Source of the DNA: Niastella koreensis GR20-10
GTDB lineage: Bacteria > Bacteroidota > Bacteroidia > Chitinophagales > Chitinophagaceae
Length of the DNA: 64,000 bases
Direction of reading: 5' to 3'
Assembly: GCF_000246855.1 (NCBI RefSeq)
Contig: NC_016609.1
Span: 2,666,001-2,730,000, forward strand
Below the pieces are notes generated by a model. That model searched no databases, was not told the origin of the DNA, and was given only the letters and a program-made list of their open reading frames with translations. This document shows, piece by piece, positions 17,413 through 33,240 of this stretch; position 1 is the first letter of the stretch, and every line of letters begins with the position of its first letter. Position numbers and translations under genes: made by a program.

Positions 17413-17699
17413 AAGAAAGAAATGTTAAAGAAGCCCCATTTAATACAATGATTTCAAATTGATAATTGTCATCTCACAACATGAGAAAAGTCATACGAAC
17501 GTAGGTAAGCGACGGGCTAAAAAATAGTAGTAACCGGGATAAAAATTCATGTGAAATCGGTTTTTACAGCAGTTAATCAGCGTCTACCCTGTTGAGCAAA
17601 CACTATGCCATGACGGATATTGGATGTTAACTAAAAATGAACGCTAAATTAAACGAAATTTCTGCGCTTAAATTGTAATTCGTTGATAAGTAATGGGGG

Positions 17700-26472: not shown

Positions 26473-27102
26473 TTAAACAACCCAAATCTTCTTATCCCAG
26501 TTATACGCCCCTTCATGCTCGGCTTCTACATTGATGTAGTTTTCGGCAATGTCGGTGAGGATCTGGTCGGTGTCTTCTTCTTCGGCCAGTGTTTTGTCCA
26601 GCAGATCTGCTGCCCGTTCCAGGCCCAGCGTAACCGCCAGCGCCACCAGTCCGCCGTAGGAAGCTATTTCATAATGTTCTATTTTTTGTGAAGCAATAAT
26701 CAGGGCCGCATCGCGGGTCATAGTGTGCTCTTCTGTTTCCCTGATAATATTCCTGCATTCGCGCAGCAATCCATCCATGGCTTCACATTTCTTGCCTTCG
26801 GGTTTTTGCCCTATCATATGAAATACCTTTTCGAGCCGTTTTACATGCCGTTCGGTTTGTTTCATATGGCTTTCTACTGCATCTTCCAGTTCCTCGGTAG
26901 TTGCCGCATTTTTTACTTCGGGCAATGCCTTCAGTAATTCCTGTTCGGCATAGTACATATCTTTCAACTGGTCAATAAAAAATTTCTGCAGAAAGGAGGG
27001 TTCTTCATTACCTTGTTGCAGGCTGCCCTTCTTTTTTGTATTGGGATCGGCTGTTTCCGGTGTCAACCCGTTTTTCTTTCCTGTATCTGTTGCGGTAGCC
27101 AT
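26473..27102 (-). CDS. DUF892 (YciE/YciF-like) ferritin-like stress protein
   Basis: 209 aa. After a charged, disordered N-terminus (about 35 residues) the four-helix ferritin-like domain begins at QKFFIDQLKDMYYAEQELLKALPEV (about 40). Glu and His residues that may ligate iron appear in YYAEQELL, SHMKQTERHVKRL and QKIEHYEIASYGGL. Family members are induced by osmotic and general stress. The KGG-containing low-complexity gene is directly upstream on the same strand, parallel to yciG next to yciF/yciE in enterobacteria. Confidence 0.9.
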   Translation of the reverse strand: MATATDTGKKNGLTPETADPNTKKKGSLQQGNEEPSFLQKFFIDQLKDMYYAEQELLKALPEVKNAATTEELEDAVESHMKQTERHVKRLEKVFHMIGQKPEGKKCEAMDGLLRECRNIIRETEEHTMTRDAALIIASQKIEHYEIASYGGLVALAVTLGLERAADLLDKTLAEEEDTDQILTDIAENYINVEAEHEGAYNWDKKIWVV

Positions 27103-27196: not shown

Positions 27197-28366
27197 TTAC
27201 CTGGAGCTGCTTTTGCTGCGGCTTGAGCTGGAACGGTTCTTTCTTCCACTTGAGCCTGATCCGCTTTGTGAGCGGCTGCCGGAAGAAGAACGGTTGCTTT
27301 GGCTCCTGCCCTGGTTTTTATGTGAAGCTTCACCGCCCATACGTCCAATGCGGCTTACATCTTCTTTAGGCATGCTGGCGAAGCCACGGCGTGAGGTACC
27401 TGACCCGGAACTGCTTCTGCCCATGCCCCGGTTTCCCTGAGACCCTTGCGATCCCTGTGACCAGCCACCGCCATATTCATTTTCCTGCTGGTAGTTTTGC
27501 CGGCCACGGTTATAATTCTGTTCTGGATCATAATCGTGTTCATGTTCCTGTTCGTATTGGTTGCCCATGCCATACATGCGGCGATCCTGGTCGTGTTGCA
27601 TACTGCCAAAACCACGGCGGGAATGTTCCTGCTGGTGTTGCCAGTCATTATAGCCTTCTTCGTCTTCATCAAAACCTTCCTCATCTCCTTCTTCACCATA
27701 ACGCCCCTGACTTTGCATGCCGTAGTCATCTTCGTCTTCTTCTTCACGGCGATAATCTTCATCTATATCCTCATCGTCACCACCGCGATAACGTCCCTGC
27801 ATGCGTCCATAGTTATTATAGTCATCATCATTTTCATCACCCTGTCCGTACCGGTTGCCATATTGGTTTCCCTGCTGGCCATAACCTCCTTGCTGGCCCC
27901 AGCCACCCTGCTGACCATATCCACCCTGCATGCCGCTGTGACCACCCTGGCTGCCACCCCAGCCGCCCTGATTGCCGTATCCTCCGTAACCACCTTGCTG
28001 ATTGCCATACCTGCCCTGCTGACCATATTGTCCTTCATTGCCATAGCCACCGAAGCCGCCCTGCATGCCTCCAAATCCTTCATGCTGGCCCCAGTTGCCG
28101 CGTTGCTGATTACCATAATTGCCGCGCTGTCCGTAATTGCCCTGGTCATAATTGCCATATCCTCTTTGCTGACCATAATCACCTTTATATCTGTTCCTGT
28201 CATTTTGTTCGCGGTATCCATAATGGGTTTGCTGCCCACCCTGCCTACCGTAATTCTGATCCTGTCCATAACCTTCATATCCTCCTTGTGAACCATAACG
28301 TCCACGGTTTCCTTCATTTTGCCGGCGGCTAAAATCCTGCCGGCCCTGCCGTTCTCTTCTTTGCAT
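27197..28366 (-). CDS. Prion-like G/Q/Y/R-rich protein with KGG motif
   Basis: 389 aa of low complexity. Residues about 22-175 are GGYGNQ-type repeats with RG/RGG dipeptides. Residues about 176-245 are acidic (DDED/EEDE runs). A degenerate KGG-like unit (SRRGFGSMQHDQDRRM) is at 249-264 and a good one (SRRGFASMPKEDVSRIGRMG) at 325-344, followed by a Ser/Arg tail. The KGG motif is known from stress-induced YciG-like proteins; the repeat part resembles RNA-binding, phase-separating proteins of eukaryotes. No signal peptide. Long antisense frames over this gene are by-products of its codon pattern. Role inferred only: stress-related, possibly nucleic-acid binding. Confidence 0.82.
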   Translation of the reverse strand: MQRRERQGRQDFSRRQNEGNRGRYGSQGGYEGYGQDQNYGRQGGQQTHYGYREQNDRNRYKGDYGQQRGYGNYDQGNYGQRGNYGNQQRGNWGQHEGFGGMQGGFGGYGNEGQYGQQGRYGNQQGGYGGYGNQGGWGGSQGGHSGMQGGYGQQGGWGQQGGYGQQGNQYGNRYGQGDENDDDYNNYGRMQGRYRGGDDEDIDEDYRREEEDEDDYGMQSQGRYGEEGDEEGFDEDEEGYNDWQHQQEHSRRGFGSMQHDQDRRMYGMGNQYEQEHEHDYDPEQNYNRGRQNYQQENEYGGGWSQGSQGSQGNRGMGRSSSGSGTSRRGFASMPKEDVSRIGRMGGEASHKNQGRSQSNRSSSGSRSQSGSGSSGRKNRSSSSRSKSSSR

Positions 28367-28744
28367 AACAAAAGTGTTTAAACGTTAGATAATAGGTATT
28401 CTTATACCTGCAATTTTAGTGCTCACTCTGTGCGAGTGTTGCTGTTTTCTTTGTGTATCGTTTACGTAAATGCGTTATGCATCCAGTTGTGATCAGGTAA
28501 TCCAAAAATGTTGACTATTAACAAGTGAATTATTAGAAACGCAGCAGTGTATAAACAAACGGTGTGAAGCAGTTTTATTACCGTTAGTAAAATAAAGCTA
28601 TGTACATCAGATTGAATAAAAAAAATAAACCCCACAATTTTTATCCGGGATTTTCATGCAGAACTATTTCCTCAATATGACACCCCGCTTGTTGCTTTAT
28701 TGCTGAAATTCCGGTGGCACGTGTTTTTTAGCAATAATGCAACT
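28367..28744. other. Intergenic stretch upstream of the TPP riboswitch
   Basis: Holds the promoter region of the KGG gene, a small inverted repeat AGGTATtcttATACCT (28394-28409) and CACTCtgtgcGAGTG (28424-28438). No exact TAnnTTTG box was found on the plus strand before the riboswitch, and no gene. Confidence 0.6.
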
Positions 28745-28872
28745 GTTTCTCAAAGGGGGTGGTTTTGTAAAACAAAGTTTGCTCCTGCATAAGGTAAGTA
28801 AACAGAAAAATGAAACCTGAGAACATACTCCGATAACCTGATCTGGATAATGCCAGCGAAGGGACGGGAAAC
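28745..28872 (+). ncRNA. TPP (thiamin pyrophosphate) riboswitch aptamer without a downstream gene
   Basis: All invariant parts are present in order: P1 GTTTCTC (28745-28751) pairing with GGGAAAC (28866-28872); AAAGGGGGTG (28752-28761); P3 GGTTT/AAACC; CTGAGA (28817-28822), the pyrimidine-binding loop; then ACCTGATCTGG / ATAATGCCAGCGAAGGGA (28836-28864), the thi-box core. The P3 extension is long (about 45 nt). A terminator follows at 28879. The next plus-strand gene starts only at 32260; the sequence beyond the terminator is the 3' end of a minus-strand glycosyltransferase gene. The element is therefore an orphan. Confidence 0.93.
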
Positions 28873-28878
28873 TACAGG

Positions 28879-28907
28879 GACTCCGGTAAAACCGGAGTCT
28901 TTTTTTA
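28879..28907 (+). terminator. Intrinsic terminator of the riboswitch RNA
   Basis: GACTCCGGT-aaa-ACCGGAGTC, a perfect 9-bp stem, then eight T with the last bases overlapping the stop codon of the convergent GT9 gene. It sits 6 nt after P1, the usual place for a TPP expression platform. Confidence 0.93.
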
Positions 28908-29960
28908 TTCAATGATGAAACCTTGTTCTCCCACCTGCATCCTGCTGAACTTTGAAAGGCCATATGCCTCCCTTTCTTTCTGGTCAAGCCATTCAATCAG
29001 TTTATGATGTACTTCAGTAAATGATCTCTTCTTTGTCCAGTCAAATACATGGTGTAATTGTTTATTTAAAGGTTCCCAGCGATGTGGTTCGCCATCCATG
29101 CTAATGATGAGGCTGGGTGTTTTAGTGGCGGCCGCAATATGTGATACGCCGGTACAATTGGCGATCAAGAGCCGGGCATGTTCTATTAAAGCAGCTACAA
29201 CGCCTACACTCGTTTTACCTGCCAGGTTGGTAACCGGCTGGTCCATCAGCGCTTCCAGATATTCAGTTATATACGTTTCTTCGGGCGTGCCGGTTATTAC
29301 CACCCTGTATCCATTTTTGGCGCAATGATCGGCGAGTGTTGCAAAATAAAATGGCGACCACCGGCGGTCGCTGCCTCTTGATCCCGGATGCACAACAATG
29401 TATTTTTCGCGGTGTACAAACGGAGCTACCTGTAACAAACCGGTTTCTTCCTGTTCTGTTATTGGAAACTCCAGCTGGGTGCCATAACCCTGAATTCCGA
29501 GGTGTTGCATCAATAACAAATGCCGGTTTATTTCATGTTCTTTTTCCGGGTATTCAATAAATGTTTCATCATTCATTCTGCAATCGAAACGGTGAAACCC
29601 TGCGAGTTGCCTGGGTTGTAACTGTTGCAGCATTTCATTTACAATTGTACCATTGCCCTGCATTTGAATAATGCAATCAAACTCCTCCTGCTGCATACGC
29701 GTAACAAACCCATCCCAGGCTTGTTGTGAAAAAGGCTGTTCGGGCAAACCGGGGTAACCGGGAAATACAATATGCCGGTCGATGTACTTATTAAATCGTT
29801 TTACAAAAGATTCCGCCCAGGGTAATCCTATCAAGGTGATCTCCGCCGTGGGAAATGCATGACGCAATGCGCGGAAGGCAGGCACGGCGCACAACATATC
29901 GCCCAGTTGCAGGGCCCTGAATAAAGCTATTTTTGGTTGTTCCTCATTAAATTGAATCAT
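28905..29960 (-). CDS. Glycosyltransferase family 9 (heptosyltransferase-like)
   Basis: 351-aa GT-B enzyme. N-terminal ALFRALQLGDMLCAVPAFRAL and C-terminal YIVVHPGSRGSDRRWSP, then LLIANCTGVSHIAAA, are the landmarks of ADP-heptose-dependent transferases. It is the last gene of the minus arm; its ATG overlaps by 4 bp (ATGA) the stop of the shifted tail of the GT2 gene upstream. Its stop overlaps the terminator of the convergent TPP riboswitch. Confidence 0.9.
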   Translation of the reverse strand: MIQFNEEQPKIALFRALQLGDMLCAVPAFRALRHAFPTAEITLIGLPWAESFVKRFNKYIDRHIVFPGYPGLPEQPFSQQAWDGFVTRMQQEEFDCIIQMQGNGTIVNEMLQQLQPRQLAGFHRFDCRMNDETFIEYPEKEHEINRHLLLMQHLGIQGYGTQLEFPITEQEETGLLQVAPFVHREKYIVVHPGSRGSDRRWSPFYFATLADHCAKNGYRVVITGTPEETYITEYLEALMDQPVTNLAGKTSVGVVAALIEHARLLIANCTGVSHIAAATKTPSLIISMDGEPHRWEPLNKQLHHVFDWTKKRSFTEVHHKLIEWLDQKEREAYGLSKFSRMQVGEQGFIIE

Positions 29961-30935
29961 AGATATAGTGTCTTAAATTTTATAGCGCCGTAAAGGTTCC
30001 AGTAAATGGATAATACCGGGATGATGGCCGATGTACAGATCATCTCCAACACATGGTTAAAACTGCGGGGAGGTATTTCGTAGCCGTTTAAAGGCAAACC
30101 AACCGGTTAATACCGCCCAAATTGCCAAACAAAGCCACGTGAGCTGTACATTGCGGAATGCAAATACAAAGGCCAGTAACAACATACAGGCTATTAAATA
30201 ATAATGCCGGGGTGTGCGGCCGATTTTGACCTTATCGTATAAGGTTGTATGCTTCTTATATAATAAGGCATTGAACATACTCTTTTTTTGTTCCCTGATG
30301 CTTACGCCCCAGGTGGCTGTGCGCACCGGGTGTTGAATGATGGCGCCGGGAACTTTTATTATAGGCACGTCTTTTTCACTCAGGTCAAATTCAAGTGCCG
30401 TGTCCTCCCGCCAGGCCATAGTAAATTCTTCATCGAGCCCGTTGGTGAGCAACAGGGCCTGGCGGCTGCAGGCGCAATTGGCGGTTACAAAACTTGCACG
30501 CTCCAATTGGGAAATATTCATTTCATAATCGGTGGGCATGCCCGACAAGGGTACCTGCACACAACCCGAAAAGGCAACAGGCGTATTTCTGTATGGTGTG
30601 TAGGCCAGCCAGTATTGTGCCAGGCATGCGGGTTGTGGCACACAATCGTCATCGGTAAAAACAATAAGCTCCCCCCGGGATTTTCGCCAGCCGGCATTGC
30701 GTGCGGCGGCCGGGCCTTTTTTTACGGGTAACGACAAACACGTCACGGTCACCCTGCCAAGGTAACTGTTGAGCCATCGTTTCATGAATTTAATGGTTTC
30801 TCTGTCGGGGCCATCGGTAACAATGATGATCTCGTAACTGGTTTCAATGGTTTGGTTGAGCAGGGCATTGAGGCAACGCTCCAGTAAAGTGGTGCGTTGC
30901 CAGGTTGCTATCACAACAGAAAGAGATGGTTTCAT
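29957..30935 (-). pseudogene. Glycosyltransferase family 2, frameshifted near its 3' end
   Basis: The open frame from 30935 encodes 292 aa of a GT2 enzyme (VVIATWQRTTLLERCLNALL; DDDCVPQP metal site; two C-terminal helices) and stops at 30057 just after NTSPQF. In the next frame the sequence continues with NHVLEMICTSAIIPVLSIYW and ends LYGAIKFKTLYL, a standard GT2 membrane tail, with a TGA at 29957-29959 overlapping the next gene's ATG. Removing one T from the TTTT run (plus-strand AAAA, 30059-30062) joins QF to NHV smoothly. So the tail is separated by a single-base insertion: a true mutation, a sequencing error or transcript slippage. The catalytic domain is intact. Confidence 0.85.
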
Positions 30936-32043
30936 GCAGCGGCATTTTTTTCCAGTAAGAATGAGTTAATAACAAGCGCATCAAAGGGCGATGTGTAAAA
31001 ACAGGCAATGGCATCCCTGGGCGTACACACAATGGGCTCGCCTCTTGTGTTAAACGACGTGTTGATGAGTACCGGCACACCGGTTAGTTTGTTAAACTCA
31101 TGCAACAGATCATAATATAGTAAGTGTTGCTGCCGGTTTACGGTTTGAATGCGGGCGGTGCCATCCACATGCCGGACGGCTGGTATTTTGTCGGCCTTCT
31201 GCGGATTGATGTTGTACACAAACAACATACATCGAAGAAACGTTGTTCAAACGTGGCTCCTTTTTTGCGTGCAGGACCAAAGGCGTCTTCCGGTGAAAAA
31301 TCGTCGATGGTATAACAACCGTTTTCACCCGGGTGAATGAAGGACCGGAATTTTTCCAGATATACCGGTTTACCATAGGAAGCCAGCGCCATTACCTTGT
31401 ACTCGTCTGACGAATGCAGGAAGCCCAGATAAGTTGTCATTTTTTCGTACAACATACCTAATGAATGGGGCATACATACTTCACCAATTTTCTCAAGGCT
31501 GTTGCCATTGCCAACAAAATAGCTTGTGCTGGCCAGTTCGCCCCGGCCATCTAGTGTTAATACCGCCGCTTCTTTAAACGGGGATGGATAGAAAGCACTC
31601 GCTGCATGCGCGATATGATGTTCTACAAAATGCCATTTTCCGGGTTTTATAACCAGGCCGGCAAGCCGCTTTTGCAGGTGATGCGGATACCCATCGCGTA
31701 AATGCTGTGGAGCTTGTTGCATATATGAAAGGAACAGATCGTTCAGATTATTGGAAAATACGCCTGTTATTTTATTGTTATCACCTGATGAATCCTGTTG
31801 CTTTTGCAAGGCAGGATCGAATGAGTAAGCGATATGATCAACATCCTGCAGGGTAATACCTGCTTCCTGTAAACAATAATCTATTGCGTGAAAAGGTAAT
31901 TCGTAAGCTGAAAACGGTATTGGCCGCTTTCCATGCTTGATGTGAGTGAACCGTTCGTCTTCTGCGGCGGCTATTAGCACTCCGTCTTTAATGAGTGCGG
32001 CCGCAGAGTCGTGAAAGGCTGCGTTAATTCCCAGCGTATACAT
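30932..32043 (-). pseudogene. Carbamoyltransferase (NodU/CmcH type) with internal deletion
   Basis: The N-terminal piece (from ATG 32043; MYTLGINAAFHDSAAALI, VEHHIAHAASAFYPSPF, TLDGRGELASTS) ends in FGPARKKGATFEQRFFD near 31235. The C-terminal piece resumes in another frame at MLFVYNINPQKADKIPAV (31228) and runs to 30932 (HVDGTARIQTV, NTSFNTRGEPIVCTP). The roughly 200 residues that normally lie between, including the GGVALN and QGRMEFGPRALG segments needed for nucleotide and carbamate handling, are missing. The product would be inactive. It was the first gene of the minus arm; its stop overlaps the GT2 start by 4 bp. Confidence 0.88.
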
Positions 32044-32259: not shown

Positions 32260-33240
32260 ATGACTTCAGTTCTAACTCAGCCGGAAAGATTAAAGATCTT
32301 TACCTGGCACATTCACGGCAGCTACCTGTATTATCTTTCTCAATGCAATTTTGATATTTACATTCCGGTAAACGATAGAAAGAACGAGGGCTATTATGGC
32401 CGCGGCAAAACATTCCTGTTTGGCGATAATGTAATAGAGGTTCCGGTTGGGCAGGTAAGAAACATGGAATTTGATTGTATCCTGTTTCAGTCGGAAAAGA
32501 ATTTTCGCATCGATCAGTATGAAGTATTGTCAGCCGAGCAACGAAAATTGCCGGCTGTTTATCTGGAGCATAATGCTCCGGCTCCCTATGCAGTAGATTC
32601 CTCCCACCCTTTATATGATCCCCGGGTGGTGCTAGTGCATGTTACGCATTACAATAAATTGATGTGGAAGAACAATGTGCCGATGATCAAAGTAATTCAA
32701 CATGGCATAACCGAGCCCTCCCACTCTTATACGGGCGAATTAAAGAAAGGGATCGTGGTGATCAATCATATCAAGGAGCGGGGCCGCATCACCGGCTGGG
32801 ATATTTTTGAGCGGGTGCGGAATGAAGTGCCCATTGACCTGGCGGGCATGGGCACCGAACATTATGGAGGGCTGGGCGAAGTGCTGTTTCCCCGGTTAAC
32901 TGCATTTACCACACGCTACCGGTTTTTATTTAATCCCATCCGGCATACCAGTTTTGGCTTATCGGTATGCGAGGCCATGATGGCGGGTATACCAGTGGTT
33001 TCACTGGCTACTACAGAATATGCCAACCTGCTGCATAATGGCGAATCGGCATTCATCAATACCAATGTGGATGCGCTGATTGCCGGGATGAAATTATTGT
33101 TAAGCGATCACTACCTGGCAGCAACGGTTGGCCAACATGGCCGGGCTGTTGCGCAGGAGCAATTTAATATGGCCCGGTTTGTTAAGGAATGGAACGAGGT
33201 GTTCCATTTTGCTATCAATGAAAAAATGATGACTGTATGA
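32260..33240 (+). CDS. Glycosyltransferase (GT-B, GT4-like)
   Basis: 326 aa. The C-terminal half shows FNPIRHTSFGLSVCEAMMAG (about residue 225) with the Glu that follows the donor-binding strand in GT4-type enzymes, then IPVVSL and a nucleotide-sugar site. The N-terminal acceptor domain is short and not recognised. First gene of the plus arm; its stop overlaps the next start by 4 bp (ATGA). Cytoplasmic; donor and acceptor unknown. Confidence 0.82.
   Translation: MTSVLTQPERLKIFTWHIHGSYLYYLSQCNFDIYIPVNDRKNEGYYGRGKTFLFGDNVIEVPVGQVRNMEFDCILFQSEKNFRIDQYEVLSAEQRKLPAVYLEHNAPAPYAVDSSHPLYDPRVVLVHVTHYNKLMWKNNVPMIKVIQHGITEPSHSYTGELKKGIVVINHIKERGRITGWDIFERVRNEVPIDLAGMGTEHYGGLGEVLFPRLTAFTTRYRFLFNPIRHTSFGLSVCEAMMAGIPVVSLATTEYANLLHNGESAFINTNVDALIAGMKLLLSDHYLAATVGQHGRAVAQEQFNMARFVKEWNEVFHFAINEKMMTV

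Follow-up and report, generated by a model that had tools for sequence, protein, structure and literature searches.

The TPP aptamer and intrinsic terminator at positions 28745-28906 of the stretch of Niastella koreensis GR20-10 DNA analysed here (64,000 nucleotides, hereafter the window) probably belong to a free-standing small RNA gene and not to a leader that controls a downstream gene. Comparison between genomes shows a promoter-like box, the aptamer and the terminator conserved as an apparent unit, independently of the gene that follows. The leader reading is disfavoured because this unit is kept whatever gene stands behind it, because the box is absent from canonical riboswitches and because no antiterminator was detected, and the small RNA gene reading is favoured by covariation in P1 and the terminator and by the intact element in three genomes of the genus (G000, G005 and G006) in which the next gene is convergent. 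More tentatively, and with somewhat less than even confidence, we propose that the family Chitinophagaceae holds a class of free-standing TPP-sensing small RNAs with sigma54-like promoters, belonging to a stress and DNA-repair regulon, by which the TPP level would be read by the stress response without control of a neighbouring gene.

The features of the locus are collected in Table 1. An earlier note on this DNA had described a complete thi-box aptamer followed after 6 nt by a perfect 9-bp terminator, and both are found in the sequence with that 6-nt linker. The terminator stem, GACTCCGGT-AAA-ACCGGAGTC (28879-28899), is followed by seven T residues (28900-28906), which overlap the stop codon (28905-28907) of the convergent glycosyltransferase (GT9) gene, as the note had stated; in our judgement, this gene is unrelated to the function of the RNA. 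Its description as an orphan, with no plus-strand gene for more than 3 kb, also agrees with the open frames as called by length and start, the next plus-strand gene after the terminator starting at 32260, 3.35 kb on. The check with RF00059 proposed in the same note gave a divided result, since all 105 positions of the model were aligned, with E-values of 1.8e-8 in 1 kb and 3.8e-8 genome-wide, but the score of 49.5 bits lies below the gathering score of 54.3, and a scan of the window at the gathering score missed the element. The low score is probably due to the long P3 arm, which holds a 44-nt inserted stretch in the RF00059 alignment. The predicted fold of the element is better than that of 199 of 200 shuffles (z -3.5). 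Two other TPP elements, scoring 77 and 66 bits, are present in the genome (source contig, 9.03 Mb), where they precede ThiC and a TonB receptor.

Table 1. Features of the window at and around the predicted TPP-aptamer RNA
Feature	Position	Strand	Basis or remark
DUF892 gene	26473..27102	-	PF05974 on the window's copy; upstream of the element; presumably YciF-like
KGG-motif (stress-induced repeat) protein gene	27197..28366	-	PF10685 on the window's copy; divergent neighbour throughout the genus
Box TTCCWCAATATG, candidate activator site	28668..28679	+	10/10 genus genomes, 71-75 nt before the model start
Promoter-like box TGGCAC-N5-TTTTA	28715..28730	+	In sigma54 -24/-12 register; the -12 element lacks its GC
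Predicted transcription start (purine)	28742	+	26 nt downstream of the first G in GGCA
Predicted free-standing TPP-aptamer small RNA, ~165 nt	28742..28906	+	Unit conserved in 10/10 genus genomes
TPP aptamer	28745..28872	+	RF00059, 49.5 bits, E 1.8e-8
Aptamer P1, GTTTCTC paired with GGGAAAC	28745-28751 with 28866-28872	+	Sequence
Aptamer P2, GGGGT/ACTCC; P3 arm extended		+	Sequence/fold
CTGAGA of the aptamer	28817-28822	+	Sequence
Pyrophosphate-sensor arm of the aptamer	28836-28864	+	
ACCTGATCTGG, then ATAATGCCAGCG, within the aptamer	28836-28846, then 28847-28858	+	Sequence
GGGA of the aptamer	28861-28864	+	Sequence
Intrinsic terminator	28879..28906	+	Perfect 9-bp stem (12 pairs if extended) and T7
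GT9 gene	28905..29960	-	PF01075; convergent to the RNA

The element is present at the same place in all ten genomes of the genus, whatever lies downstream. The ten copies score between 44.8 and 60.2 bits with RF00059, six above the gathering score and four, including that of the window, below it, and identity to the window's element is 75-83% over the aligned stretch in eight of the nine relatives and 86% over a shorter stretch in G004. Conservation across the genus stops at the T tract, and aptamer and terminator are kept as one unit in 10/10 genomes. The genes behind this unit vary: GT9 is directly convergent with it in G000, G005 and G006, receiver genes follow in G001, G003, G004 and G008, while G002 and G007 have a CheB-CheR-histidine-kinase gene there and G009 has a same-strand glycosyltransferase-like gene (names assigned with Pfam for the GT9 of the window, the kinase of G002 and the receiver of G003, and by similarity for the other downstream genes). 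GT9 lies somewhere downstream in eight of the ten genomes, G002 and G009 having none within the stretch read; in five of these eight, response-regulator or CheB-CheR-kinase genes separate it from the element, and what is missing from G000, G005 and G006 is therefore two-component genes. At locus L045 of G004, just downstream of the RNA, a short frame of 108 aa on the plus strand is possibly what is left of the CheB-CheR-kinase gene found in G002 and G007.

These junctions bear on the proposal of the earlier note that an incoming glycan locus had severed the element from a thiamin gene. Such a displacement would account for a TPP aptamer, recognizable by sequence and fold, that has no gene behind it, but none of the nine relatives was seen to have a thi or TonB gene at the junction (frames read by eye over ~8 kb downstream, 0.5 kb in G006). 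In addition, GT9 stands downstream in most of the genus and behind two-component genes in five genomes, and the other two TPP elements of the genome already precede ThiC and a TonB receptor, so that we abandon this explanation as having hardly any chance of being correct.

In G000, G005 and G006, the 29-nt aptamer core ACCTGATCTGGATAATGCCAGCGAAGGGA and eight terminator stem pairs are unchanged, while fourfold sites of the neighbouring genes are 46-55% identical in the five comparisons made among these genomes. The simplest reading is that the RNA would be kept by selection though no gene stands behind it. Since same-strand two-component genes, at distances of ~100-683 nt, stand behind the element in 6/10 genomes of the genus, the element of the window may once have been a leader.

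A covariance model was built from the ten genus copies, including aptamer and terminator and leaving out the promoter, and was used to search 394 family genomes with a cut of 55 bits, which gave 58 places outside the genus (hand count). Fifty-six of these were fetched (all except those of G359 and G361) and 54 were kept, two being set aside as canonical, namely the place in G090, before a TonB receptor, and the second place in G145, before ThiC. Six places below the cut were also fetched, of which those of G400 and G330 are class-like and are counted outside the 54, and those of G205, G399, G022 and G018 are canonical by eye. The 54 elements with aptamer and terminator are distributed over 26 other genera of Chitinophagaceae, and the RF00059 gathering score was exceeded by three of seven class elements (six loci tested). 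Among the named isolates carrying the class are Chitinophaga ginsengisegetis, C. polysaccharea, C. oryziterrae, C. eiseniae and C. hostae.

An alignment of 60 sequences (the ten genus copies, 47 of the 54 with seven left out, and three named Chitinophaga), which is fitted to the model, contains two-sided pair changes in 8/8 pairs of P1 and 11/11 pairs of the terminator, and in 29/35 pairs overall against 14-19 in slid controls. CTGAGA is kept in 66/66 elements, a motif that the finding model itself favours, and few columns are conserved outside the aptamer core.

Three elements of the class or resembling it (loci L075, L111 and L112 in G137, G400 and G330, the first belonging to the 54 and the other two standing outside them) lie 1-19 nt past a DUF4142 stop codon, with aptamer and terminator in the arrangement of a bacterial 3' UTR, and in all three the DUF4142 gene ahead of the aptamer carries the promoter-like box itself. 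At four other loci (L129, L130 and L135 in three Chitinophaga genomes and L061 in G207) the terminator of the RNA and the end of a convergent gene touch each other, a geometry like that at GT9; the gene touched is a universal stress protein at L130 and L061, the two that were tested.

Outside the family, 14 matches at the level of the order (E 1e-10 or better) all precede same-strand genes, which are ThiS/ThiC- or TonB-like by eye (the one tested being ThiC), and none of them has the box. These matches look canonical and were rejected as members of the class. Three matches in Neomarinimicrobiota have no terminator by eye, and six E. coli plasmid records were discarded, as they match only 54 nt of the aptamer core. 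Elements with the box were also seen in a Flavobacteriaceae MAG (L131) and a Sphingobacteriales MAG (L132), the latter with a terminator and a convergent next gene as well; either the class may reach beyond the family sampled or the MAG labels may differ.

Upstream of the class aptamers, outside the reach of the covariance model, a shared box of the form YTGGCAY..TTTTTT was found. The pattern GGCAY-N5-TT occurs within 60 nt upstream of 40/54 class elements (23 of the 26 genera) and of 10/10 genus copies, compared with 0/39 canonical TPP riboswitches and a background of 94 in 2182 windows upstream of genes; GGCAY alone occurs within the same distance in 48/54, 10/10 and 2/39, respectively. The exact box is missing in 14 of the 54, and the RNA of G083 is low-scoring for it. 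A purine is present at the fixed spacing of 26 nt in 54 of 57 elements, these 57 being the ones, out of 66, whose box, core and P2 were found by the script patterns, and the median distance between the predicted start and the beginning of P1 is 1 nt (quartiles -1 and 4, with the helix search beginning 3 nt before that point).

The box contains the sigma54 -24 element TGGCAY (28715-28720), and the sigma54 consensus is TGGCAC-N5-7-TTGCT (PMC12316311). The -12 element lacks its GC, with G in 18% and C in 33% of 61 anchored sites at that place, and for this reason we do not assign the box to sigma54. The canonical sigma54 pattern TGGCAYNNNNTTTGCW is not enriched in the genome itself (one match, one in the control), and the T6 form of the pattern has five matches against none in the control, at least one of them apparently within a long open frame. 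The sole TGGCAYNNNNTTTGCW match of the 9-Mb genome happens to lie in the window, at 17595-17610 on the minus strand (L144). RpoN is encoded in 383 of the 394 family genomes, so that a comparison of its presence with that of the element cannot discriminate and was dropped; in favour of a sigma54-like promoter, genes for NtrC-type sigma54 activators stand within ~4.5 kb of five loci in four genera, the genus of the window not being among them.

The candidate activator site TTCCWCAATATG lies further upstream in the genus, and its relaxed form was found upstream of none of the 62 elements fetched outside the genus (six of them canonical). A scoring matrix trained on the promoters of the RNAs and chosen post hoc from class loci had 37 matches among 95,091 upstream positions, compared with 88 among 1,407,279 other positions, and the genes preceded by matches include those for CinA, DUF892, DUF4142, Ku, MscS and SDR proteins.

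The position of the next gene also separates the class from canonical TPP riboswitches. With gene calls around class elements made by a home-made codon-model finder in place of a standard annotator, 34/54 class elements are followed by a same-strand gene, versus 39/39 canonical ones (Fisher 4e-6), the controls not being independent, since two loci of a single genus account for 19 of the 39. The 39 comprise four places below the cut, the two set aside, the 14 order-level matches and 19 genus elements, with L004 left out because it failed a pattern. A same-strand next gene lies within 300 nt of 26/54 class elements and 20/54 are followed by an opposite-strand gene; by genus, 12 have all elements followed by same-strand genes, nine have all followed by opposite-strand genes and five are mixed. 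Most of the recurring neighbour families stand both upstream and downstream of elements and on either strand. The same-strand gene has a promoter-like box of its own past the terminator of the RNA in G011, G255, G328 and G083, which makes four of the 26 near same-strand genes, and the other 22 have none. Some members of the class may thus control the following gene in cis.

Thermodynamic prediction, made without a known switch as positive control, gave no sign of an antiterminator, as the 5' arm of the terminator pairs upstream with a value of 0.22 compared with 0.23 for shuffled arms (65 of 66 elements, the script having found no terminator in one); 23 of the 65 are above their own null for upstream pairing, and the predicted probability of terminator formation is 0.93. 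Transcription attenuation was discarded as a mechanism on this ground, upstream pairing of the arm not going beyond that of shuffles. The element of the window has neither a same-strand gene directly downstream nor a predicted alternative fold that would exclude the terminator. Pairing of the RNA with neighbouring translation starts was likewise rejected, as no such pairing was found over 47 sites (mean z -0.16, with z < -2 in two of the 47).

The main alternative for the window is that the element is a relic or a live cis-attenuator, from which read-through would enter two-component genes (CheB-CheR-kinase or receiver) that the lineage of G000, G005 and G006 has lost. Receiver and kinase genes do follow on the same strand in six genomes of the genus and occur near elements of other genera too, and there is an excess of same-strand next genes in the class. 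On the other hand, there is the missing antiterminator, the unchanged core and terminator stem in three genomes that have no such genes, where fourfold sites have diverged as described, the sizeable share of opposite-strand next genes, and the distances of ~100-683 nt; we consider this alternative unlikely, with perhaps one chance in several.

The second function suggested by the earlier note, that the RNA acts on the convergent GT9 gene as TPP-dependent antisense when the terminator opens, fares worse. The overlap of the T tract with the GT9 stop codon speaks for it, as do the elements of the three Chitinophaga genomes and of G207 that likewise touch a convergent gene. Nevertheless, only 3/10 genus genomes have GT9 as direct convergent neighbour, the convergent gene elsewhere is a different one, and an antiterminator that would open the terminator was not detected, which makes antisense control of GT9 very improbable. 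The small RNA gene remains the preferred reading of the element.

The neighbours of the class elements suggest in which physiological context such RNAs would operate. Families recurring within ~4.5 kb, named by Pfam on representatives and carried to the others by BLAST clusters, include DUF892 (own genus counted), DUF4142 and receiver proteins in seven genera each, SDR in six, PAS-kinase in five, pyrophosphatase, DUF6496, NtrC-type activators, LigD polymerase and Methyltransf_28 in four each, topoisomerase IB and DUF2383 in three, and Ku, CinA, DUF763, DUF72, MscS and Hsp20 in two. Receiver and kinase genes are thus found near class elements of other genera and not only in the genus of the window. 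Sixteen stress and repair families, picked post hoc after the loci had been viewed, are represented in 12 of 20 element windows and in none of 40 control windows placed at hand-picked positions in the same genomes; with the own seed of each element window left out the former count is 8/20, and with the receiver, PAS-kinase and SDR families added the contrast becomes 13/20 against 6/40.

The predicted small RNA gene would consist of its own promoter, a TPP aptamer near the 5' end of the RNA and a constitutive terminator. The box would be transcribed by an alternative, sigma54-like form of the polymerase within the stress response, and the transcript would end at the terminator with or without bound TPP. 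With low confidence, we suggest that TPP might close P1 at the 5' end and so set the lifetime of the RNA, by protection, or its shape, and, equally guardedly, that the RNA might act in trans on targets elsewhere, by which thiamin status would be reported to the stress response. An RNA acting in trans was among the readings offered by the earlier note and is the one left standing, the trans action itself being what we infer. It is also conceivable that the TPP fold serves mainly as a stable 5' cap or end-structure of the RNA, or as a store of TPP, with no role in signalling. The predicted RNA is indeed almost wholly aptamer and terminator, it shows no pairing with the starts of its neighbours, and few of its columns are conserved outside the aptamer core; nonetheless, the invariance of CTGAGA, even in a set found with a model that favours it, goes beyond the needs of stability alone, and the association with stress genes also argues for something more, so that we regard a purely structural or storage role as quite unlikely.

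TPP riboswitches are usually treated as leaders of thiamin genes. The element shares with canonical TPP riboswitches (RF00059), such as those before thiC and the TonB receptor in this genome, the same CTGAGA, the pyrophosphate-sensor arm and the P1-P5 architecture, whereas it differs in having no gene directly behind it, a promoter-like box of its own at fixed spacing, and a terminator directly after P1 with no antiterminator detected. No report of free-standing TPP aptamer RNAs was found in the literature searched, a scope that excluded subscription papers and preprints.

TPP aptamers away from 5' leaders are known from the 3' UTRs of plant genes. Diatom TPP aptamers, too, are placed in 3' UTRs (PMC9544697), and the elements right behind the DUF4142 gene in G137, G330 and G400 resemble them in position. 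These three differ from the eukaryotic examples in being bacterial, in being followed by an intrinsic terminator and in standing behind a gene unrelated to thiamin.

Rli55 and EutX carry a protein-binding part besides the aptamer, whereas in the element nothing is seen beyond aptamer and terminator. Both are described as B12-riboswitch small RNAs released from riboswitches, Rli55 sequestering the regulator EutV (PMC8383071), and the likeness to the element would be that of a metabolite aptamer within a regulatory small RNA. The Listeria SAM riboswitches SreA and SreB, described as also acting in trans (PMC8383071), are similar as terminated riboswitch RNAs that serve as small RNAs, a trans action that the element may share; SreA arises by termination from a leader that in addition switches the gene behind it, whereas the element appears not to depend on the gene that follows. 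In Sinorhizobium, the terminated small RNA RZ of the metZ SAM-II riboswitch (PMC9373788) is another terminated riboswitch named as a small RNA, and differs in lying upstream of a biosynthesis gene of its own ligand pathway.

If the proposal is true, a vitamin level would be sensed by an independent RNA for use outside the metabolism of that vitamin, and a share of the 'TPP riboswitches' of the family would control nothing downstream. Across the family, this sensor has the appearance of an independent gene, one that shares a promoter-like box and has neighbours of the stress type, and the prediction is exact: an RNA that starts near 28742, ends near 28906, binds TPP and depends on one alternative sigma factor.

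Further along the window, at 30932-32043 on the minus strand, one gene, presumably carbamoyltransferase-like, is split into two overlapping frames of 301 and 98 aa, and G001 and G003 have a single frame of 567 aa at the matching place.
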